Shown one piece after another: positions 1-61,242 of a stretch of DNA of 64,000 nucleotides. The first letter of the stretch is position 1. Each line of letters opens with the position of its first letter. The translations under genes and the position numbers were made by a program. The DNA lies in assembly GCA_942159475.1 (NCBI GenBank), contig OW804096.1, positions 140,171,442 to 140,235,441 of the forward strand, given 5' to 3'. This DNA is from Sthenelais limicola. Its lineage: Eukaryota > Annelida > Polychaeta > Phyllodocida > Sigalionidae. The notes beneath the pieces are model-generated. The model worked only from the letters and a program-made list of their open reading frames with translations, did not search any database and was not told where the DNA came from.

Positions 1-127
1 ATTGTATTCATTCGATAAATCTGTCTGGCTATGTTAAACTATATTTTGAAGCTCATTTTTGTCTTAAATTTGGGTTATTTGAGAGGATTGGTGAGGGCCA
101 ATTGTACGTTTTCTGAAGATCTTACCC
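1..127 (+). repeat. family-A MITE, 3' part cut by window edge
   Basis: Matches the right half of family A (ATTTGGGTTATTTGAGAGG..., then CTGAAGATCTTACCC). The left part lies outside the window. Confidence 0.7.
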
Positions 128-263
128 TCTAAGGTGTTTCATGAGATACATAATTTGGGGTGTTTGTTATTAAGGCCCATATCCCCTGCTACGGCCGGCC
201 GCCCAACTATAATACTTCACCATTGTGTTTGTCATTCATCGGTTATGGACCAAGAGTACTTTA

Positions 264-497
264 GTGTCAGATTTTCATGAATGTACATTTGACAGCTGTA
301 CACATTTAGTAAAATCTGCTAAATTAGGATGTGATTTAGTCAATACTAGGTACATTTGAGTATATTCGACATTGCCCTGATTCTAGCAATCTGTTTGGTT
401 AGGTTGAAATGTATTTTGAACTTTATTTTCGTCTGAAATTTGAGTTATTTCAAAGGATTGGTGAAGGTGAATTGCAGATTTTCTGGCGACTTCACCC
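264..497 (+). repeat. family-A MITE
   Basis: Diverged full-length copy starting GTGTCAGATTTTC and ending TTCACCC, flanked on both sides by TTTA (260-263 and 498-501), which looks like a 4-bp target-site duplication. Confidence 0.75.
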
Positions 498-501
498 TTT
501 A

Positions 502-1127
502 GCAGATGTGGTAATGGACACCGCACTTATTATGTTTTCTAGGCCACATGCCCGATATATCATATATAGATTTCTTTGCTACACAGTTACGGTCTACTTC
601 TAGGTTGTATCACAAGGATGAGATGTAATGCTACTCTGCTACAGAAAACCTGGGGTATTTCTCTTCTAGAAATCATATAAGGTTTAAGATCAAGGACGGA
701 AAAAAAAGGTAAAACTCATTGACAATTCATTGTACATTGTAATATAAGAACTCTAACTAGGTTATACAATGTTGTGCAGAATGAATGCAGGGATATAATG
801 TAATGACCGTTACATCAGCTGGTATCAGGCTGACAAGATAATGGAGAACAATTTTCATAGAGAAATCCTATTTTCTAAATTGTAACTATATTCCAGTGGA
901 GTATATGCGATATCTGTAAATTATTATGTTAGTTTCTAGATAACATGAAACAAAGGGGAATAAAGATAATTATATAAACTTACTCTTTGGTTTATGATAG
1001 ACCTTGAATATGTATCTAGTTGCGCTGATGCACTTTACCTTCTCCCCGCTACTGATTGGCTAAAAATAGGAGTTTTGTTACAAGAAAAATAAGTCTAATA
1101 GTTTTAATGAATAGATATATTTCCCAG
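502..1127. other. no gene seen upstream of ABCC
   Basis: AT-rich sequence between a family-A MITE and the first recognised ABCC exon. No promoter motif I would defend; a 5' UTR exon could lie here. Confidence 0.3.
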
Positions 1128-18055
<16,928 letters not shown>

Positions 18056-20062: not shown

Positions 20063-20226
20063 TACAGGACCAGCAACACAAAGCTGCTTGCTGGTCCGGG
20101 ACATGACTCTTTCTCCAACCAACTTGTGGGGGCGCCACTGCACGCAGGCACATGCATCTGCCGCAAAAATTTAATACTAGATGGCGCCACATCCCGTGCA
20201 CCAAGTAGAATCTTAGGGGGTCATTT

Positions 20227-20450
20227 GGGTCAGATTTTCGACAAATGTACAATTCAACTTCGCCAATCTTCTCAAATAAACCAAATTTCAGACGACAATA
20301 AAGTCTAGAATACAGTTCAACCTAATCAAACAGATTGCTAGAATCAATGCAGTGCCGAATATACTCGAATTTACCCAATAATGGCCAAATTGCAGCCTAA
20401 TTTAGCAGAATTAACTAAATGTGTACAGCTGCCAATAGTACATTTTCTGA
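20227..20450 (-). repeat. family-A MITE, 3' terminus cut at the LINE junction
   Basis: Starts GGGTCAGATTTTCGAC and follows the family to ACATTTTCTGA, where the match stops. The last ~13 bases of the terminal repeat are missing and LINE sequence follows. Confidence 0.7.
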
Positions 20451-20509
20451 TATCTCCAGCTAAGGGAGGTTTTCAAGTTCTCTGTTGTTGTTACAATAAT
20501 AATAAGCAC

Positions 20510-21391
20510 ATGTTATACAAGAAGGCCTACAGAGTCAATTGGAAACAAGATTCCCCAATTAAAGTAGAGTTTTTCGCGGCCTTAGATGCGGACAAAGTGT
20601 GGGAACTAAGACCCAGACAGAAAAAGACCACCCTAAAAGAAGAGGGAATGGAAGTAACAGAGAAGGAAGAAAGAGGCTTTGGCATCAAAAGGGACACACC
20701 GTTAATCCTCCGCCAACGATACAACAGAGTCAAAATGATCGCAGATGCAGCTGACAAGAAAGGGTTCGAACATAAAATTATCAGAGGAGGAATAATAATC
20801 AACAGAGTGACATATAGACACGACCAATTAGAAGGTGTACCCACTGAACTCCTTCTCTCTCAGCTAAGCAAAAGAGAAGATGAGAACACGGTTGTATTCT
20901 TTACTTGCAACAGCCCTCTTTCAAACCACTATAGGGCTCCTTTTGCTATCGATCAGCACAGGTTTGAAAACGTGGAGCAATACTTATTCTACAGGAGAGC
21001 TAAAATAGCAGAAGATCCGGATAAACCTGCCATGGCCCTCAAAACCCTAGACCCAGTCGAATGCAAAAAATTCATGGGAGCTCTAACTGCCAACGTGGAT
21101 ATATGGGAACAACACAGGTTAGAAATAGTAACAAGAGCATGCAAGGCCAAGGCTAAATATCACAAACAAGTGAGAGACTTCCTAAGGTTAACAGGAGATC
21201 GTAAAATCGGGGAAGCTTCCAACAATAGAGAATGGGGCATTGGTATGGGGTTAAATAACCCTGAAGTGCTCAACACAACCCTGTGGCCCTCACAAGGAAA
21301 TATTATGGGCAAAGCCTGGATGGCCGTCAGGCAGAAGTTAAGCAGAAGTGAAAAAGATCTGATGCAGGAAGATGCCGAGGATTCCGAGTAA
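20510..21391 (+). CDS. LINE ORF1 protein with C-terminal NADAR (YbiA-like) domain
   Basis: The open frame runs from 20381, but its first ~24 residues come from the adjoining MITE, so I start at the ATG at 20510 (293 residues). The N-terminal ~125 residues are basic and charged; they include a short block, IIRGGIIINRVTYRHDQL, that I cannot assign to a family. Residues ~129-277 match the NADAR/DUF1768 fold: FFTCNSPLSNHYRAPFAID, then FENVEQYLFYRRAKIAED, a KTLDPVECKK helix, TGDRKIGEAS, NREWGIGMG, and NIMGKAWMAVRQKL. The conserved glutamate of VEQY (residue 156 from this start), EAS and WGIG are all intact. Known members are N-glycosidases of riboflavin intermediates (YbiA/RibX) and guanine-ADP-ribose hydrolases (DarT-NADAR). 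I see no esterase, PHD finger, CCHC knuckle or typical L1 coiled coil. Its role in the element is unknown. Confidence 0.85.
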   Translation: MLYKKAYRVNWKQDSPIKVEFFAALDADKVWELRPRQKKTTLKEEGMEVTEKEERGFGIKRDTPLILRQRYNRVKMIADAADKKGFEHKIIRGGIIINRVTYRHDQLEGVPTELLLSQLSKREDENTVVFFTCNSPLSNHYRAPFAIDQHRFENVEQYLFYRRAKIAEDPDKPAMALKTLDPVECKKFMGALTANVDIWEQHRLEIVTRACKAKAKYHKQVRDFLRLTGDRKIGEASNNREWGIGMGLNNPEVLNTTLWPSQGNIMGKAWMAVRQKLSRSEKDLMQEDAEDSE

Positions 21392-21434
21392 TATGCCTGT
21401 CATAAAATGAACAAGATGTCTTCCAACCATCGAA

Positions 21435-24359
21435 ATGGAAGGTAAATGGGCAGATAACAACAAAACTTCCCTAAGGCTAGTCTCGCTAAATATAAATGGT
21501 TTTAATAATTCCTTGAAGAGAAAACATATATTAGATGAATATAGACAATGGCCTAATACGATCGTGGCCTTGCAAGAGACACATTCCAAACCTACCATAG
21601 AAAAGATCTGGAACACTCAATGGCCAGGCGAAATAAAATATTCGCATGGAACATCCGCCTCAAGAGGAGTATTACTATTGGTATCTAAAGATTTAAAAAA
21701 TAAAATAACAAATGAGGGTAAGGACAGTGACGGTAGATGGCAGTATATAATAATTACCTGTGAAAAAGTGAAAATGTGTATAATGAATGTATACGCGCCA
21801 ACAGCAGACTGCCCCAAAGACCAAAAAACCCTGTGGAAAGAGCTATCAAAATGTATGGATAAATTGAAATATGACCAGTGTGTAATAATGGGTGACTTTA
21901 ATGTTGATCTGTCTAACAAAAAAACCTCTAAAGTAAGCAAAGAGCTGTCTTATTTTGTAATCGAACAAGACCTGTCCGATATAATAGCAGAGAGAGAAAA
22001 TGGTAACCCCCCTCATACGTGGGAAAGAAATGAGCAGGAATCTCGTATAGATTATATTTTTATATCTAAAAATTTGATAAGCAAGGTGGAGTTAAATGAA
22101 ACAAATTCTACCCCTCACTCAGATCATAAAGAAACAAGAATAATGCTTCATACGGGTGCTCAAGGTAGGGGTAGAGGGTATTGGAAAATGAATTCGGCCC
22201 TCCTAGAAAATGATCGCTTTATTGCCAAAATTGAAGAGTTGTGTAGAAATGCTGTAAATGATAATCTTAACCCCAAATTAACGTGGGAATTCTTCAAATT
22301 AAAAGTTAGGGAAGAGGCCATAGCAATATCTAGCCAAATGGCGAAAGAAAGAAGAAAAAGTGTACTAGATAGAAATAACAGATTGAATGTTCTCGATAGA
22401 AAAAAAAGGCTTAATATTGAAGAACGGCATGAAAAAAATGAGCTACTTAAGCAAGCTAGAGAATATGATTTAAATAAGGCAGAAGGAGCCCTAATAAGGT
22501 CCAAAGCCAAATGGGCAGTTGAAGGAGAAAGACCTTCTAAGTTCTTTTGCGCCCTTGAAAAATACAGAGGAGAAAAAAAAGTTATAAACACCTTAAACAT
22601 CGATGGTAAATTATCCGATTGTCCCAAGAAAATACTCGAGGAAGGTCATAATTTCTATTCTGAACTGTATTCTAGTAAATGTGTCAACCGCAATGTGGCG
22701 GACGATTTTACAAATCGACAGCAATTTGTCCAGTTAGATGAGACTGATAATGGAATATTATGTGAAGAAATAACAGAGCCTGAAGTTGAAAAAATTGTAA
22801 AACAAATGAAGAAAAACAAATCACCTGGTTGCGATGGTTTTACTGTGGAGTTTTTCCAGAAATTTTGGTACACCATAAATGATATGTTCATGAATATGCT
22901 TCATCAATGCTTGGGAGAGGGAGAAATGACAGAGAACCAAAAACGTGGCATAATTAGTGTTATTCCAAAGAAAGGGAACGACCCCTCTTACATAAAAAAT
23001 TGGAGACCCATCACCTTACTCAATGTCGATTATAAAATTATATCAAAAACAATAGCCTCAAGGTTAAATCTCTTTCTCCCAAGCATAATACATGAGGACC
23101 AACTTGGCTTTGTGAAGGGAAGGTTCATTGGAACCGCTATTCGAAAAATCGATGACATTATTTCTTATCTTGAACACGAAAAAGAGAGTGGTATCATTGC
23201 ATCTCTAGATTTTACCAAAGCCTACGATTCCATAGAGTGGACCTTTTTAAGGAAAGCAATGGAAGCACACAACATTAGCGATTTATTCATAGGTTGGATA
23301 GAAACTCTTTTTAAAGGTTCCAAGGCGACTTTCATGAACAATGGATTCTCTTCTCAATGGTTCTCGGTGAACAGAGGGATGAAACAGGGTGACCCCCTAT
23401 CATCCTCTCTGTTCACCATCGTTATTGAAAAACTTGCTGAAAATATTAGGAAAAATAATGATATACTGGGGATAAATCTTGCGGATTCTCAAACTAAAAT
23501 CACCCAATTTGCGGATGATATTACAATTTCTGTGAAGGACGAAAAGTCCTTATTATGCGCTATTGAATGTGTAGAATCCTTTTCCCTAGCCTCAGGCCTT
23601 TGCCTGAATAAGACCAAATCTAATGGTTTCCTAATAGGAGAAATAAGTGTAACAAGTGAAAAAGTAAAAGAAATTAAGTGGGTCAGCTCGATGAAAATCT
23701 TGGGAGTTACTTTACTATACCCAAGAAATGAAAAAGAACTTAGAAAAATAAACAGCGACGATATTATAGTAAAGGTGAGAAATGTTATAGCTCAATGGAA
23801 GTGTAGATCTCTAACCATGAAGGGACGAATTCTTGTCTGCAACGTGTTTTTATTACCCTTGTTTCAACATTCGCTGTCATGTATATCCTTTGATAAAGCC
23901 GTGTTACAAGAAATTAATGAAATAATGCTCAACTTTGTATGGAAAAATGGATCGCATAGAATTGGTGTGGCCTTTTTGGCCCAGAAAAGTGATAATGGAG
24001 GATTAGGTTTACGCTTAATAAATGAGATATATGAGGCCAATAGAATAATGTGGGTGAAAAGAATCATGCATGGAGGTAACAGCACGTGGTACAAGTCCCT
24101 AGAAGCCTTTCATGGTAGAAAAGTGGATAATATACTATTATCTAGATACAAACCAACCAATGCTTTGAACGAATTCTATGCCGACCTATTCAGATTGTGG
24201 AATAGACATTATTACAAGCACGAGCCTACAGAGCCTGCTCAGTTGTTCAAAGAAAGACTATGGTGTAATAGATTTATAAAAGACAAAAAGCAGATGATAT
24301 ATTATAAGAGTTGGGAGTTGGGAGTTGGGTTGATTTTTATGTTAATGGTACCGCCTTAA
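21435..24359 (+). CDS. LINE ORF2: AP endonuclease and reverse transcriptase
   Basis: The start ATG follows the ORF1 stop by 43 bases. Endonuclease residues 14-235: LNING (N19), QETH (E48), NVYAPTAD, GDFNVD (D154, N156), SRIDYIF, SDHK (D230, H231). Reverse transcriptase residues ~430-760: KKNKSPGCDGF, NWRPITLLNVDYKI, QLGFVKGRF, SLDFTKAYDS (D592), RGMKQGDPLS, QFADDITI (D694, D695). These motifs place it in the L1/Tx1 group; the residues for nicking and polymerisation are all present. The frame leaves the family alignment at about 24310 and stops at 24359 (MLMVPP), because of a tandem duplication; the rest continues in the frame of the next entry. Expected role: target-primed reverse transcription in the nucleus. 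Confidence 0.93.
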   Translation: MEGKWADNNKTSLRLVSLNINGFNNSLKRKHILDEYRQWPNTIVALQETHSKPTIEKIWNTQWPGEIKYSHGTSASRGVLLLVSKDLKNKITNEGKDSDGRWQYIIITCEKVKMCIMNVYAPTADCPKDQKTLWKELSKCMDKLKYDQCVIMGDFNVDLSNKKTSKVSKELSYFVIEQDLSDIIAERENGNPPHTWERNEQESRIDYIFISKNLISKVELNETNSTPHSDHKETRIMLHTGAQGRGRGYWKMNSALLENDRFIAKIEELCRNAVNDNLNPKLTWEFFKLKVREEAIAISSQMAKERRKSVLDRNNRLNVLDRKKRLNIEERHEKNELLKQAREYDLNKAEGALIRSKAKWAVEGERPSKFFCALEKYRGEKKVINTLNIDGKLSDCPKKILEEGHNFYSELYSSKCVNRNVADDFTNRQQFVQLDETDNGILCEEITEPEVEKIVKQMKKNKSPGCDGFTVEFFQKFWYTINDMFMNMLHQCLGEGEMTENQKRGIISVIPKKGNDPSYIKNWRPITLLNVDYKIISKTIASRLNLFLPSIIHEDQLGFVKGRFIGTAIRKIDDIISYLEHEKESGIIASLDFTKAYDSIEWTFLRKAMEAHNISDLFIGWIETLFKGSKATFMNNGFSSQWFSVNRGMKQGDPLSSSLFTIVIEKLAENIRKNNDILGINLADSQTKITQFADDITISVKDEKSLLCAIECVESFSLASGLCLNKTKSNGFLIGEISVTSEKVKEIKWVSSMKILGVTLLYPRNEKELRKINSDDIIVKVRNVIAQWKCRSLTMKGRILVCNVFLLPLFQHSLSCISFDKAVLQEINEIMLNFVWKNGSHRIGVAFLAQKSDNGGLGLRLINEIYEANRIMWVKRIMHGGNSTWYKSLEAFHGRKVDNILLSRYKPTNALNEFYADLFRLWNRHYYKHEPTEPAQLFKERLWCNRFIKDKKQMIYYKSWELGVGLIFMLMVPP

Positions 24360-25060
24360 ACCTCATAAGCTGCAATGCAAAAAATATATATTGTGAATTA
24401 ATTAAAAAAAGGAAGATGGAGAGAGAAAAGTTTGATGAGTGGCAAAGGTTGTTAGATATGGACGATGACCAATTTGATCAGGTAGACTGGAAAAAATGCT
24501 TTTCGTTACCATATAAAGCCACAACAGAAACTAGATTGCAAGAACTTCAATTCAAGATTCTTCATAAAATAATTACATGTAATGTGCACTTAAAAAATAT
24601 TAGAATCATCAACTCTCCAAGGTGTAACTACTGTAATCTAAAAGATGACATCGTCCATTTCTTTGTCAAATGCAAACTTAATACCAACATATGGCAGAAT
24701 ATTTTGAGATGGATACATGAAGTAGGGTACTTAAATACAAACAAAAGAGGTAAAAACCTTGTGTCTGTGAACAAAGGTAGAATGGTAGTAGTTCTTCAAG
24801 ATATAATGTTTGGTTTTGAAGGAGACGAACAATGTGTAAAAATTATAAATTGGATTGTCCTGCAGGTCAAAGGCATAATACATAAGCAAAGGTTGTTCGA
24901 CCAAGGTAAAATAAATGTATTAAATGTATTTTCCGAGCTCAAAATGAGATGCAATGTAACTCTCTATTCAATTTCAACCTGTTTAGCCCAGAGAGAAAAA
25001 AAGGCAATGTGGAGAAGGCTTAAAGATGACATACAAGAAAAAATCGACAGTCTAAAATAA
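24311..25060 (+). CDS. LINE ORF2 C-terminal part, frameshifted
   Basis: Continuation of ORF2 after the frameshift, ending at TAA 25058-25060. It carries the L1/Tx1 C-terminal signature TRLQELQFKILHKIITCNVHL, followed by a zinc-knuckle-like CNYCNLKDDIVHFFVKC (C-x2-C-x8-H-x4-C) and then a basic tail. It has no start codon of its own; the ORF opens at TTG. It should be read as the broken end of the same protein, not a separate gene. Confidence 0.85.
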   Translation: MGVGSWVDFYVNGTALNLISCNAKNIYCELIKKRKMEREKFDEWQRLLDMDDDQFDQVDWKKCFSLPYKATTETRLQELQFKILHKIITCNVHLKNIRIINSPRCNYCNLKDDIVHFFVKCKLNTNIWQNILRWIHEVGYLNTNKRGKNLVSVNKGRMVVVLQDIMFGFEGDEQCVKIINWIVLQVKGIIHKQRLFDQGKINVLNVFSELKMRCNVTLYSISTCLAQREKKAMWRRLKDDIQEKIDSLK

Positions 25061-25381
25061 CAACTAGAATTGCCTCCAACTGGTGTCTACCCTTGCCTTC
25101 TCCGCAAGGCCCAACCTCGATAGCTCGTTCCATTATATATAAGCCCGAAAATTCCAAAGGTGCTGCCACCTGAGGACAAACGGTGAAAGCGTTTACCCGA
25201 AAGAATCAACACTATCGCCATCTAGCGTTTTATGTTTCACAACTAGCGGACCCACCTCTATGGTGCCAAAAAATAATCGCATGTTGTTTCCTACCTGAAT
25301 TTTCCTTTTATGTACGATTACCCTGCCCATCATATATGTCAATGTCGGAAATAAAATATTTGCAAAAACAAAAAAAAAAAG
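25061..25381 (+). other. LINE 3' UTR and poly(A) tail
   Basis: After the ORF2 stop there is a short UTR with a stem-loop (AAACG at 25178-25182 paired with CGTTT at 25190-25194), an AATAAA-like GGAAATAAAATATT at about 25348, and an A-rich tail broken by single C and G bases. The stem could be the template feature recognised by the element's own RT; that is inference. Confidence 0.6.
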
Positions 25382-31389: not shown

Positions 31390-31932
31390 CTGTTATAAAC
31401 ATTATAACAGCAGCAGAATATTGATACATCCAGTCCTATAATTCATAATATGAGTAACTCTTGTATGAACATATAACAGCCGCAGAATATTGATCAAGTC
31501 AGTCCTATAAGTCATAATATGAGTAACACTTGTATGAACATATAACAGCCGCAGAATATTGATCAAGTCAGTCCTATAAGTCATAATATGAGTAACACTT
31601 GTATAAACATTATAACAGCAGCACAATATTGATACATCCAGTCCTATCAGTCATAATATGAGTAACTCTTGTATAAACATATAACAGCAGCAGAATATTG
31701 ATAAATCCAGTCCTATCAGTCATAATATGAGTAACTCTTGTATAAACATTATAACAGCAGCACAATATTGATACATCCAGTCCTATCAGTCATAATATGA
31801 GTAACTCTTGTATAAACATTATAACAGCAGCACAATATTGATAAATCCAGTCCTATAAGTCATAATAATTATGAGTAACTCTTGTATAAACATATAACAG
31901 CCGCAGAATATTGATCAAGTCAGTCCTATAGA
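31390..31932 (+). repeat. tandem array of 69-70-bp units, about 8 copies
   Basis: The word CAGTCCTAT recurs at 31431, 31500, 31569, 31639, 31708, 31778, 31848 and 31921, giving periods of 69-70 (last 73). Units differ by a few bases (GATACATC versus GATCAAGT). The units alternate between two variants, suggesting higher-order duplication. The open frame on the minus strand across it is a by-product of the repeat. Confidence 0.88.
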
Positions 31933-45957: not shown

Positions 45958-46015
45958 CTTTACTCTATCCATATGTACACTTGTTCTAATTGGATACGAC
46001 ACCAGGGGCTGCTTC

Positions 46016-46858
46016 TCCCCCTGCTTCTCCTCCTACTTCTCCCCCTGCTTCTCCCCCTGCTTCTCCTCCTACTTCTCCCCCTGCTTCTCCTCCTACTTCT
46101 CCTCCTGCTTCTCCTCCTGCTTCTCCTCCTGCTTCTCCTCCTCCTTCTCCCCCTGCTTCTCCTCCTACTTCTCCTCCTGCTTCTCCTCCTCCTTCTCCCC
46201 CTGCTTCTCCTCCTCCTTCTCCTCCTGCTTCTCCCCCTGCTTCTCCTCCTCCTTCTCCCCCTGCTTCTCCTCCTCCTTCTTCCCAGCTTCTCCCCCTGCT
46301 TCTCCCCCTGCTTCTCCTCCTCCTTCTCCCCCTCCTTCTTCTCCTCCTTCTCCTCCTGCTTCTCCCCCTGCTTCTCCCCCTGCTTCTCCCCCTGCTTCTC
46401 CCCCTGCTTCTCCTCCTCCTTCTTCCCAGCTTCTCCTCCTGCTTCTCCCCCTGCTTCTCCTCCCCCTGCTTCTCCCCCTCCTTCTTCTCCTCCTTCTCCT
46501 CCTGCTTCTCCTCCTGCTTCTCATCCTGTTTCTCCTCCTCCTTCTCCCCCTCCTTCTTCTCCTCCTTCTCCCCCTCCTTCTTCTCCTCCTGCTCCTCCTG
46601 CTTCTCCCCCTGCTTCTCCCCCTGCTTCTCCCCCTGCTTCTCCCCCAGCTTCTCCCCCTGCTTCTCCCCCTGCTTCTCCTCCTTCTCCTCCTCCTTCTTC
46701 TCCTCCTGCTCCTCCTGCTTCTCCTCCTCCTTCTCCCCCTCCTTCACCTCCTCCTTCTCCCCCTGCTTCTCCTCCTGCTTCTCCTCCTTCTCCCCCTCCT
46801 TCTTCTCCTCCTGCTCCTCCTGCTTCTCCTCCTCCTTCTCCCCCTCCTTCTCCTCCAG
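46016..46858. repeat. ~840-bp polypyrimidine minisatellite (TTCTCCYCCTGC-type 12-mers)
   Basis: Long tandem array of 12-base and 15-base variants of CTTCTCCTCCTG with a strict C/T bias on the + strand. It produces long open frames in several phases: proline/alanine/serine, leucine or serine/cysteine/phenylalanine on +, and glutamate/glycine/lysine on -. I read these as artefacts of low complexity, not genes. The regular 12-base period shows repeated slippage. Confidence 0.92.
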
Positions 46859-58133: not shown

Positions 58134-58287
58134 GGTACAACATCACACATCTCACCTTCAGATTGAGCTCTATCTTGGAACAACAATAGTACTCCACCCT
58201 GACTATGTTCAGAACCTTGACACAAGAACCTGTTTCATGTACCCACACATAGATCATTGTGACCATCATACTTAAACACAATTCACA

Positions 58288-61242
58288 ATGCTTATCCCTA
58301 AAGAATTCATAAAGCAACACTGCCTGATTGCTGAACCAGATGATATTATCAAAGGAGCAGTTGAAGGACATGTAAGACTATTTACACAGGATAAGCTGCA
58401 GCATGTTGATGTTAATGAGTGTAAATATCCAGGTGGATTAGGACTGATACACCTGGCTGTCCACTATGGCCAGCTCGGGGTGGTGAGATTATTAATAGCA
58501 GCAGGTGCTGATGTGGACTTGCAAGGCTCAGGATTAATCAACTTAAAGAAGCTTTTACTCTCACAAAGGGATATAGATGTGAAGGTACCAGGTTTTACAG
58601 CTTTACATAAGGCCACATCAAAGGGAGATCTTGACGTGGTTCAATTGTTATTAGATGCTGGTGCAGATATCAACAAACCTAATGGATACGGCATGTGTCC
58701 TCTCTATCTTGCTGTAGTAAATGGATGTTGTGATCTAGTGCAAATGCTATTGCTAAGAGGTGCTATATATTCAACAACAAAAACACATCTTGCCTCTCAT
58801 CCTTTACATCTCGCAGCAAAAATGGGGCATACAAGCATTATTCAATTATTTCTTGATAGAGGTTATGCAATTGATACTAAGAATAAATCAGATGATACAG
58901 CACTTTCAGTGGCTGCTCGTAGCAATGTACAAACTTCTGTGGATTTCCTATTAAAGCACGGTGCTGATGTGAAGCTAACATCAATAGAGGGCAGTATTAA
59001 GCCAGAAATTCTGAGGGTATTAGTACAGGCTGGTGCCAATGTGCATGGGCGAGAAGGGAATGAAGCCCCACTCCACAATGCTATTCTTCAGGGGGATATT
59101 AGTACTGTAAAGGTGCTTGTAGATGCTGGTGTGAGAATGGATGTGCCAGACTGCGGATCAGGTTATCTTCCTTTAACTACAGCTATACTATCCCAGTCCA
59201 CAGAAATGGTAGAGTATTTATTGATGCAAAATCATGATCCAAATGAAATCTCTAAATTAGACTATGTACAAGGAGATAGACGGACTGCTCTTAGTGTAGC
59301 AGTGACAGTTCTGTCAAATGTTGAGATCATGAGCCTTTTGTTGGAGTATGGGGCAGATGTGAATCTCTGTACTGAGACCGGTGACAATGCTTTACTCGCT
59401 GCAGCCTATGATGGAGAAGATATTGCAGTAGAGCTACTACTTAAGGCAGGAGCCCATGTAAATCATGCAAATGCTTATTCTTCAACTCCTTTGCATCAGG
59501 CAGTGTTTGATGGGTCCATTGAAAAAGTCAAACTTTTGATTGAGTATGGTGCTGATGTAAATGCTAAGGATAAAGATGGTCTTAGACCTTTGCATCTGTC
59601 TGCCACGGTAGGCAAAGAAGACATTGTCAAATATTTATCATCTGCCGGAGCGTCAATGGACAAAGTGTCTATTCATGGTGAAACCGCACTTCATCTTGCT
59701 ACTGATTTTGATAAGCTAGAAATAGTGAAGATACTTATGACAATGGGTGCTAGATGTGATGTCAGAGACCACACTGATACTGTGCCTTTACATCTGGCAG
59801 CAGTGAGAGGACTTCCACACATAGCAGAATATCTAATCCTCAAGAACAAGTGTACAATCAATTACTCAGATGTATTTGGTGCAACTCCACTCCACTTGGC
59901 AACCTTTAATGGTCATGAAACCACTGTTCAAATTCTCCTAGACAATGGGGCTGATAAAAATCTCCCCTACAAAGGAAAACTCCCACTACATATAGCTCAG
60001 TGTTGTGGACATTATTCTTTAGTCAAACTCTTTGATGGTGTGAATCCAGTCTTGGACCATCAGGTGAGCTTAGACACCTTTTTGGAATCAGTGATAAATA
60101 CCACTGGAATTGGGAAAGTAGATGATACTGATCCTGATGTAAAAATCATCAATGAGACAGTGGAATCATATATGAGGGAAGTCCTGGCGAAGGTGGCAAA
60201 CCTTGATCCCCGGTTCACCATGGAAGTTTTTCTATGTGGAAGTGTATCTGAGAACTGTAAAGTTGAAATGCCTAATGAACGAGATATCATGATATGCTTG
60301 ACATGTTTCAATAAAAGCAAAGCATTTGAAGTAGTGGAGGATATTTCTGTAGGACCTCACTATGCAAAAGTGAAAATCATAGATGATGGAATAAAATCCC
60401 TCTGGCCTGAAATGATGGTTGAACCAGCTAATGGTTACCTACTACCACTAACATTGAAGCGAATTCTCATGGACAACATTGCAGATGTTCTATTACAAGA
60501 TGACTTCCAACCACCATCTTGCATCTACTCTTTCCTTAATGGCTTACCTCAACATAGTGTGAGGCAATGTGTTGTAAATGAGACAAGATCTGGTTTCAAG
60601 ATGACACTCTATTGGTGGAGTGGTTGCTACAAAGGAATGGAAATCACTGTTGACATCATCCTTGCATTCCCATTGGAGCATTCTCCAACCAGCTTGATTA
60701 AAAGAGTTCTAAGTACAGACAGCACAAGACCATTTTGTTATCTCGTACCAAAGAGTGTTGACATGTTGAACAAGTACCTATGGCGGGTGTCTACTTCCAA
60801 CATAGAAAAAGAGGAAATGCTATCTGTATCAGAGGAGGCCAGACAATCATACATCAGAGCCAAAGTGCTATTGACACAGGCAGGCTCTCTTGCTGATACT
60901 GCCAATGGAGTCTACCCTGTGCCATCTTACTACCTTAAAACATCTTTTTTCTTTGAACTGGAAAAGTTCCCAGAGAATATTGAATGGCAGGGATTAAAAC
61001 ACTTGGAGAGGATGGTGAGCATATTTGAAAGGTTGGCCAGATGGCTCCGACACAATGAAGGAGTCCCCTCATTCTTTATTGATGGAGGTTTTATCATTAC
61101 AGATATTCAGAAAGATTCAAGCACAAAATACATGTTTCACAATGTTTCAAACATTGTGCAATTCCTTCTGAACCATGAAACCAAAGCCATTGATATTTGT
61201 CCTCGAGATCTATGCCATATTTTGGACATAAATGTCATTTAA
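58288..61242 (+). CDS. Ankyrin-repeat / cGAS-Mab-21-like nucleotidyltransferase (cGLR) fusion, 984 aa
   Basis: Single open exon. The start ATG follows an in-frame stop (TAA 58273-58275), so the N-terminus is fixed unless a splice joins inside. Residues ~20-585 hold about 16 ankyrin repeats, with clear units such as GFTALHKATSKGDLDVVQLL, SSTPLHQAVFDGSIEKVKLL and GATPLHLATFNGHETTVQIL; one near residues 232-255 is incomplete. Residues ~592-980 match the Mab-21/cGAS nucleotidyltransferase. The GS motif (G651-S652) is followed by PNERDIMICL, placing E664 and D666 at the two metal-binding positions, and ITVDIILAF places D789 at the third. Human cGAS has the same NExDVM / DITLA pattern, whereas developmental Mab-21 proteins lack the complete triad. 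This suggests an active cGLR making a nucleotide second messenger for STING-type signalling, with the ankyrin stack as partner or ligand binder; both points are inference. No cGAS zinc thumb seen. No signal peptide or membrane segment, so it is probably cytosolic. Confidence 0.9.
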   Translation: MLIPKEFIKQHCLIAEPDDIIKGAVEGHVRLFTQDKLQHVDVNECKYPGGLGLIHLAVHYGQLGVVRLLIAAGADVDLQGSGLINLKKLLLSQRDIDVKVPGFTALHKATSKGDLDVVQLLLDAGADINKPNGYGMCPLYLAVVNGCCDLVQMLLLRGAIYSTTKTHLASHPLHLAAKMGHTSIIQLFLDRGYAIDTKNKSDDTALSVAARSNVQTSVDFLLKHGADVKLTSIEGSIKPEILRVLVQAGANVHGREGNEAPLHNAILQGDISTVKVLVDAGVRMDVPDCGSGYLPLTTAILSQSTEMVEYLLMQNHDPNEISKLDYVQGDRRTALSVAVTVLSNVEIMSLLLEYGADVNLCTETGDNALLAAAYDGEDIAVELLLKAGAHVNHANAYSSTPLHQAVFDGSIEKVKLLIEYGADVNAKDKDGLRPLHLSATVGKEDIVKYLSSAGASMDKVSIHGETALHLATDFDKLEIVKILMTMGARCDVRDHTDTVPLHLAAVRGLPHIAEYLILKNKCTINYSDVFGATPLHLATFNGHETTVQILLDNGADKNLPYKGKLPLHIAQCCGHYSLVKLFDGVNPVLDHQVSLDTFLESVINTTGIGKVDDTDPDVKIINETVESYMREVLAKVANLDPRFTMEVFLCGSVSENCKVEMPNERDIMICLTCFNKSKAFEVVEDISVGPHYAKVKIIDDGIKSLWPEMMVEPANGYLLPLTLKRILMDNIADVLLQDDFQPPSCIYSFLNGLPQHSVRQCVVNETRSGFKMTLYWWSGCYKGMEITVDIILAFPLEHSPTSLIKRVLSTDSTRPFCYLVPKSVDMLNKYLWRVSTSNIEKEEMLSVSEEARQSYIRAKVLLTQAGSLADTANGVYPVPSYYLKTSFFFELEKFPENIEWQGLKHLERMVSIFERLARWLRHNEGVPSFFIDGGFIITDIQKDSSTKYMFHNVSNIVQFLLNHETKAIDICPRDLCHILDINVI

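Follow-up and report, generated by a model that had tools for sequence, protein, structure and literature searches.

A NADAR domain at the end of the L1-type ORF1 protein in LINEs of the polychaete Sthenelais limicola

NADAR domains of the YbiA type, defined by a glutamate at the position of E125 in the last strand (PMC11543638, PMC11125620), have been described in the ORF1 of several Tx1 LINE families of the oyster Crassostrea gigas, and also on the Pol of Gypsy elements of Ectocarpus (Genome Biology 2025; PMC12477816). In published assays, NADARs undo the ADP-ribosylation of guanosine, both in RNA (PMC11833690) and in DNA (PMC11125620), and the physiological role of eukaryotic NADARs, including those of animals, is described as unclear (PMC11125620). 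Among the papers listed in searches of the PMC open full-text library, PMC12477816 is the one report of a LINE-borne NADAR.

Here we analyze an element of this kind in a stretch of 64,000 nucleotides of the S. limicola genome, referred to below as the window. As LINE-borne NADARs are already in print in PMC12477816, the element adds to a kind that was briefly noted there; new relative to that description are a second LINE group, data on selection, and a near-constant junction between the NADAR and the preceding domain.

The window element and its NADAR domain

The features of the element are listed in Table 1. From the proximity of its endonuclease and reverse transcriptase to L1 ORF2p, the element is assigned to the L1/Tx1 group of LINEs, where the label Tx1 is borrowed from the oyster relatives in PMC12477816. 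Among the solved LINEs compared, the window ORF2 matches human L1 ORF2p at 3.7e-91 and the best R2 protein at only 3.3e-23. The Pfam matches of the ORF2 frame have E-values of 2e-14 (endonuclease) and 5.9e-43 (reverse transcriptase), and the zf-RVT match in the ORF2 remainder (E 2.4e-5, 25.3 bits) is below the cut-off of 27.5. The ORF1 stop and ORF2 are separated by 43 bases, exactly as given by an earlier model reading of the DNA (the sequence-only reading), and its start of the feature at 20510 is close to the start of the element.

Table 1. Features of the window LINE copy (positions in the window)
Feature	Position	Strand	Basis
5'-truncated LINE copy, L1/Tx1 group	20507..25381	+	blastn vs near-full-length copy L031
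ORF1 open frame, 336 aa	20381-21391	+	ORF listing
ORF1 3' part: RRM end, CTD, NADAR	20507..21391	+	relatives match from about residue 42; L031 comparison
ORF1 CTD, L1 ORF1p-like C-terminal domain	20675..20884	+	
NADAR domain, YbiA type	20909..21340	+	
Codon E199 = E43 of P. nicotianae NADAR	20975..20977	+	alignment to 8bau
Codon R206 = phosphate-binding K50 equivalent	20996..20998	+	alignment to 8bau
Codon E278 = catalytic E125 equivalent, defines YbiA type	21212..21214	+	alignment to 8bau
ORF2 frame, endonuclease + RT	21435..24359	+	PF03372, PF14529, PF00078
ORF2 remainder, different frame	24329..25060	+	weak zf-RVT match, sub-threshold
Short A-rich tail, 3' end of element	about 25364-25380	+	3' end of element

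In blastn comparison with L031 (element at about 125-7036), window positions 20507-24316 and 24329-25381 are 98.8% and 98.5% identical, respectively, and at the break between them (24316-24329) about 187 nt are missing and the frame is shifted. Since this comparison puts the LINE start near 20507, codons 1-42 of the ORF1 open frame (20381-20506) are foreign to the LINE, and the bases of this frame up to 20450 are part of a short dispersed repeat. Cut off inside ORF1 and having lost about 187 nt of ORF2 together with its frame, the window copy is dead. No target-site duplication around it was found by eye.

The dispersed repeat is about 230 bp long (window 20220-20450) and has many further copies across the window; by eye, L032, an intact copy of the same LINE family elsewhere in the genome, appears to be inserted into one copy of it. 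Two likely ABC transporter exons (PF00664, PF00005) are located on the plus strand at 14755-15105 and 16864-17298. The window also holds a 69-base tandem array (31394-31930) and 71 copies of the 12-base tandem repeat CTGCTTCTCCTC (46009-46856), with a strong strand skew. A long uninterrupted frame at 58276-61242 (+) combines ankyrin repeats with a following Mab-21 nucleotidyltransferase-like domain, which we presume could be cGAS-like.

Residues 177-320 of ORF1 match the Pfam NADAR family (PF08719; E 9.9e-21, 75.1 bits, cut-off 35.1), and ORF1 also matches NCBIfam TIGR02464 (E 1.1e-21, 77.8 bits, cut-off 73.7) and the NADAR of P. nicotianae (PDB 8bau; E 4.4e-9). The sequence-only reading, which recognized a NADAR in this LINE ORF1 and was prepared to withdraw it if no significant NADAR match emerged, is thereby borne out, and the motifs that it quoted (NSPLSNHY, VEQY, GEAS, WGIG and an LMxVR-like end) are present in ORF1. 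The domain has the YbiA fold and belongs to the YbiA type, its residue at the E125 position being Glu and neither Asp nor His. It differs from the DarT-associated (BC4488) antitoxins, which have Asp there and a DarT next to them, both in this Glu and in its neighbouring ORF, which is ORF2. Matches to viral structures show only that viral NADARs have this fold too.

Active-site residues were mapped via the 8bau alignment in 25 ORF1s, namely 24 copies from the S. limicola genome, some of them closely related, and the public protein P0001; the roles of the residues follow PMC11543638, which reports on the NADARs of P. nicotianae and E. coli C7. Residues equivalent to E43, E125, and W89 occur in 25/25, so that the catalytic glutamate, E278 in the window copy, is intact as had been claimed, and W133 has an equivalent in 24. 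At the R93 position, 16 ORF1s have Arg and 7 have Lys. The position of the essential phosphate-binding lysine K50 holds Arg in 16, including the window family, Lys in 8, and Gln in one, that is, K or R in 24/25. Further, both ribose-coordinating glutamates are invariant in a 12-protein alignment spanning the two LINE groups described below. In the alignment, R79 and Y84 of the P. nicotianae enzyme, which contact the pyrophosphate and the adenine, are not obviously conserved; therefore the ligand could differ.

Upstream of the NADAR, full-length ORF1s have a coiled coil, an RRM, and a CTD, in this order, and are thus L1-type ORF1 proteins. A profile built from 12 such ORF1s (11 from the S. limicola genome and P0001) matches human L1 ORF1p with an E-value of 0.0024 and 8bau with 5.6e-29. 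The suggestion of the sequence-only reading that the NADAR replaces the usual RNA chaperone layout of L1 ORF1p is ruled out, as the full-length copies retain all three domains and the NADAR is appended to them.

Copies, a second LINE group and selection

The ORF1 was searched against the S. limicola genome (1.13 Gb, 161 contigs), and the best 120 of 54,387 first-look candidates were scored. All 120 match; 119 extend into the NADAR and one ends at residue 185, and 108 are stop-free over the matched stretch as counted from the match list. Scoring only the best candidates favours intact copies, and the first-look total does not measure copy number. Thirteen copies of the window family, L002-L014, each have an open ORF1 frame, 595-602 aa in length, and are 99.0-99.94% identical to each other across about 3.3 kb (78 pairs); the family is young. 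In L032, the ORF1 frame spans 602 aa (583 if counted from the first ATG) and the ORF2 frame 1274 aa, with 43 nt between them; L031 is broken in its endonuclease part. Both of these copies, the two that were examined, end in A-rich tails and are flanked by target-site duplications of 14 bp (L031) and 15 bp (L032), which together with the near-identity of the family copies are marks of recent target-primed insertion. By eye, the 5' and 3' flanks of L031 resemble the ORF2 end of another LINE, which would make it a nested insertion.

To avoid selecting by NADAR, the genome was also searched with the endonuclease, and 150 of 2300 first-look candidates were scored. Ten of these matches, absent from the NADAR and ORF1 lists and apparently of different families, were picked by hand and about 1 kb upstream of each was examined. 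A NADAR precedes the endonuclease in seven, including L077, where only its second half is seen at the edge of the stretch and extra sequence lies before ORF2; three have no NADAR within the 1 kb. L074, without a full NADAR, is by eye cut off in the NADAR tail. L082 has none; in two other copies of its family, L084 and L085, the ORF1 frame is 664 aa long and includes a NADAR (Pfam 2.9e-25 in L084). In L079 nothing NADAR-like was found in about 1 kb upstream of the endonuclease.

In a Pfam NADAR search of the same genome, the best 150 of 5561 first-look candidates were scored; 150/150 are above the cut-off and 148, counted from the match list, are stop-free, in frames of 162 to 827 aa. Among them are LINEs that resemble the window element little in ORF2. 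For instance, L068 has a NADAR ORF1, and its ORF2 matches L1 ORF2p at only 1.8e-12 and an R2 protein at 4.2e-15; the ORF2 of L069 matches L1 ORF2p at 6.5e-17. The ORF2s of L068 and L071 align with 296 bits, and those of the window element and L068 with only 73.6 bits. By these comparisons, a second LINE group, distant from that of the window, has a NADAR-bearing ORF1 of the same layout. By its motifs, this group may lie near CR1/Jockey. In L069, L070, and L071 of this group a GDSL-like ORF stands between the NADAR ORF1 and ORF2. This GDSL/SGNH-like ORF has a Pfam E-value of 0.0086 in L069 (2226-2933), a match too weak to pass the cut-off, was recognized by eye as the second ORF of L070, and has no Pfam match in L071 (2653-3396).

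A stand-alone NADAR ORF of 162 aa was seen at L073 (G000:C1:94853900-94857000, minus strand), and 162-aa frames resembling it occur at C1:89380390 and C1:66983187. The adjacent 223-aa ORF of L073 has no Pfam match; a motif in it suggests Polinton/adintovirus-like DNA polymerases.

The NADAR on ORF1 is under purifying selection in both LINE groups. Its dN/dS is 0.01-0.13 in nine of 16 pairs of ORF1 copies, dS being saturated in the other seven, and it exceeds that of the N-terminal part in two of the eight pairs for which both ratios are available, so that the NADAR is not always the slowest domain of ORF1. In the second group, dN/dS of the NADAR is 0.055-0.086 among L056, L058, L059, and L064, which form one family; L065 and L066 give 0.39 with very few changes, and pairs from distant families reach 0.30-0.36, ratios that are untrustworthy because dS is above 2. 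Both points that the sequence-only reading put up for checking, a NADAR common to many copies and purifying selection on it, thus hold, and the outcome that it had named as refuting, absence of the domain from other copies, was not observed.

Origin of the fusion

Public proteins of about 85-270 aa, a length range that most whole ORF1s exceed, were searched with a NADAR profile; 610 matched, and 120 of these were listed. Of 122 public proteins, 41 have at least 39 residues before the NADAR, and a LINE CTD was found upstream in 17 of these, using a CTD model built solely from ORF1s of S. limicola. P0001 and P0002 came from ORF1 queries; without them the count is 15/39.

At the junction, 35 of 41 rows, drawn from both LINE groups and the public proteins, have a CTD proline followed, at a distance of exactly 28 residues, by the Asn of the PLSN motif. 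Initially 44 rows were entered; two lack the motif (P0023, P0095) and one is too short. Some of the public rows were chosen by eye, and in three of those so chosen (P0010, P0027, P0066) the CTD match is not significant. Among the deviants, the wrong motif was taken in L039 and L055, L057 is truncated, the residue differs in L062, L067, and L070, and L071 is longer by one residue. Because unrelated elements share the same join, the junction suggests that CTD and NADAR were joined in one old fusion.

In a NADAR tree of 82 rows, picked by group and E-value order from 141 non-redundant ones, each of the two S. limicola LINE groups forms one clade (100/100, 16 rows; 100/97, 8 rows), and the groups stand apart. 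A joint clade of both was not rejected by the AU test, with p 0.072 for 24 rows and 0.052 for 37 rows, the latter set having been named after the tree was viewed. The fusion may have arisen once and then spread or been inherited from far back, or it may have arisen twice at the same place.

Possible function and known systems

L1 ORF1p binds its element's RNA. If the ORF1p of these LINEs likewise coats the element RNA, its NADAR, being C-terminal on the coating protein, would be a putative enzyme that stays attached to the ribonucleoprotein of the element and close to the cDNA while insertion proceeds. The most likely job of such an enzyme would be to hydrolyse ADP-ribose from guanines of the element RNA, or of the cDNA during target-primed reverse transcription, and the template would stay readable in the presence of guanine ADP-ribosyltransferases of the host or the environment. 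We give this reading, in which an ORF1p-tethered putative NADAR hydrolase strips guanine ADP-ribose from element RNA or cDNA, a probability of roughly 0.45. It is favoured because tested NADARs catalyze this reaction, clams contain the guanine-N2 DNA ADP-ribosyltransferase CARP-1 (PMC11209040), and the LINE relatives described earlier are from an oyster; the link from the clam enzyme to the host of the window LINE is only suggestive. Several observations count against it: NADARs outside DarT operons were inefficient antitoxins (PMC11125620), a Lys-to-Arg change in the E. coli C7 NADAR, the residue that the window family has, keeps activity in vitro but loses rescue from DarT1 (PMC11543638), and the contacts made by R79 and Y84 are not obviously kept. 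Further, a search of the S. limicola genome for Scabin-like guanine ADP-ribosyltransferases (PF22596) gave 16 candidates and no matches, and the control genomes were empty too. A search for the haemocyanin domain PF14830 likewise gave no match, again with empty controls, and is uninformative.

Alternatively, the NADAR could act on small ADP-ribose or NAD derivatives, destroying a diffusible NAD-derived immune signal or clearing by-products of RNA processing, with ORF1 merely an available frame. For viral NADARs, a preference for soluble derivatives of ADP-ribose that arise in antiviral conflict or RNA processing was proposed (PMC9503650), and the poor conservation of some pyrophosphate and adenine contacts is in line with this. 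However, the same paper argues that macromolecular ADP-ribosylation is the main target of NADARs in RNA viruses of eukaryotes, and a domain that two LINE groups carry on an ORF1p that binds RNA better fits a nucleic-acid substrate; we consider action on small derivatives unlikely.

It is rather improbable that the NADAR helps to process the element RNA and has no part in counter-defence. Such a role would parallel nematode SNA-3, which is needed for SL1 trans-splicing and is inactivated by mutation of key NADAR residues (PMC9303266), and processing of RNA intermediates was suggested by the authors of the Ectocarpus study (PMC12477816); the biochemical activity of the SNA-3 NADARs, however, is unknown (PMC9303266). 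We also see little chance that the domain is a catalytically silent module which binds ADP-ribose, an NAD cap, or RNA and strengthens assembly of the ribonucleoprotein. Conservation of the fold alone would be expected to give low dN/dS, and the catalytic lysine is replaced by Arg in 16 of 25 ORF1s, but the two ribose-coordinating glutamates are kept in every one of them and across both LINE groups. Finally, a role-less host exon captured once by the window copy, which that copy taken alone would allow, is rejected, since all but one of the 120 ORF1 matches that were scored elsewhere in the genome (best of 54,387) extend into the NADAR, the domain is under purifying selection, and the same fusion occurs in public proteins.

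That many LINE copies keep the domain under selection on their RNA-binding protein (119/120 ORF1 matches and 150/150 NADAR matches among the best scored) offers a concrete setting for eukaryotic NADARs, namely retrotransposon RNA or cDNA with ADP-ribosylated guanine. As intact relatives retain the NADAR under strong selection, our data suggest that in some invertebrates the host may modify the nucleic acid of retrotransposons with ADP-ribose. Removal of guanine ADP-ribose by the LINE protein, if true, would point to a defence against retrotransposons in invertebrates that is based on ADP-ribosylation of nucleic acids. We regard as doubtful the broader proposal that ORF1p-NADAR is one ancient module which erases guanine ADP-ribosylation and which has spread among unrelated LINE groups or been retained in them; in that case many invertebrates would mark retrotransposon RNA or nascent cDNA, an undescribed defence to which the NADAR would be the elements' answer. 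If the domain is not an eraser, it would still be an accessory enzyme domain that at least two LINE groups carry on ORF1p.

The CTD is the last domain of L1 ORF1p. In comparison with its structures (PDB 2ykp, 2yko, 2ldy), the ORF1p of the window family has a NADAR beyond the CTD, at a nearly constant spacing. The P. nicotianae NADAR (PDB 8bau) has K50 where the window element has Arg, its R79 and Y84 are not obviously kept in the LINE NADARs, and the latter, unlike it, are part of an ORF1p. The Tx1 LINEs of C. gigas (Repbase), compared here by description only, are likewise of the L1/Tx1 group with a YbiA-type NADAR in ORF1; their account in PMC12477816, a single sentence with another of interpretation and a supplementary figure, is not known to include data on selection, copies, the junction, or a second LINE group such as those presented here. 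The Ectocarpus Gypsy NADAR is also retrotransposon-borne and of the YbiA type, but the element is an LTR retrotransposon and the domain is N-terminal on Pol rather than on an RNA-binding ORF1p (PMC12477816). Finally, the NADARs of animal RNA viruses (PMC9503650) lie within the replicase polyprotein, unlike those of LINE ORF1, yet there too an ADP-ribose-processing domain is joined to the proteins of a replicating RNA element.
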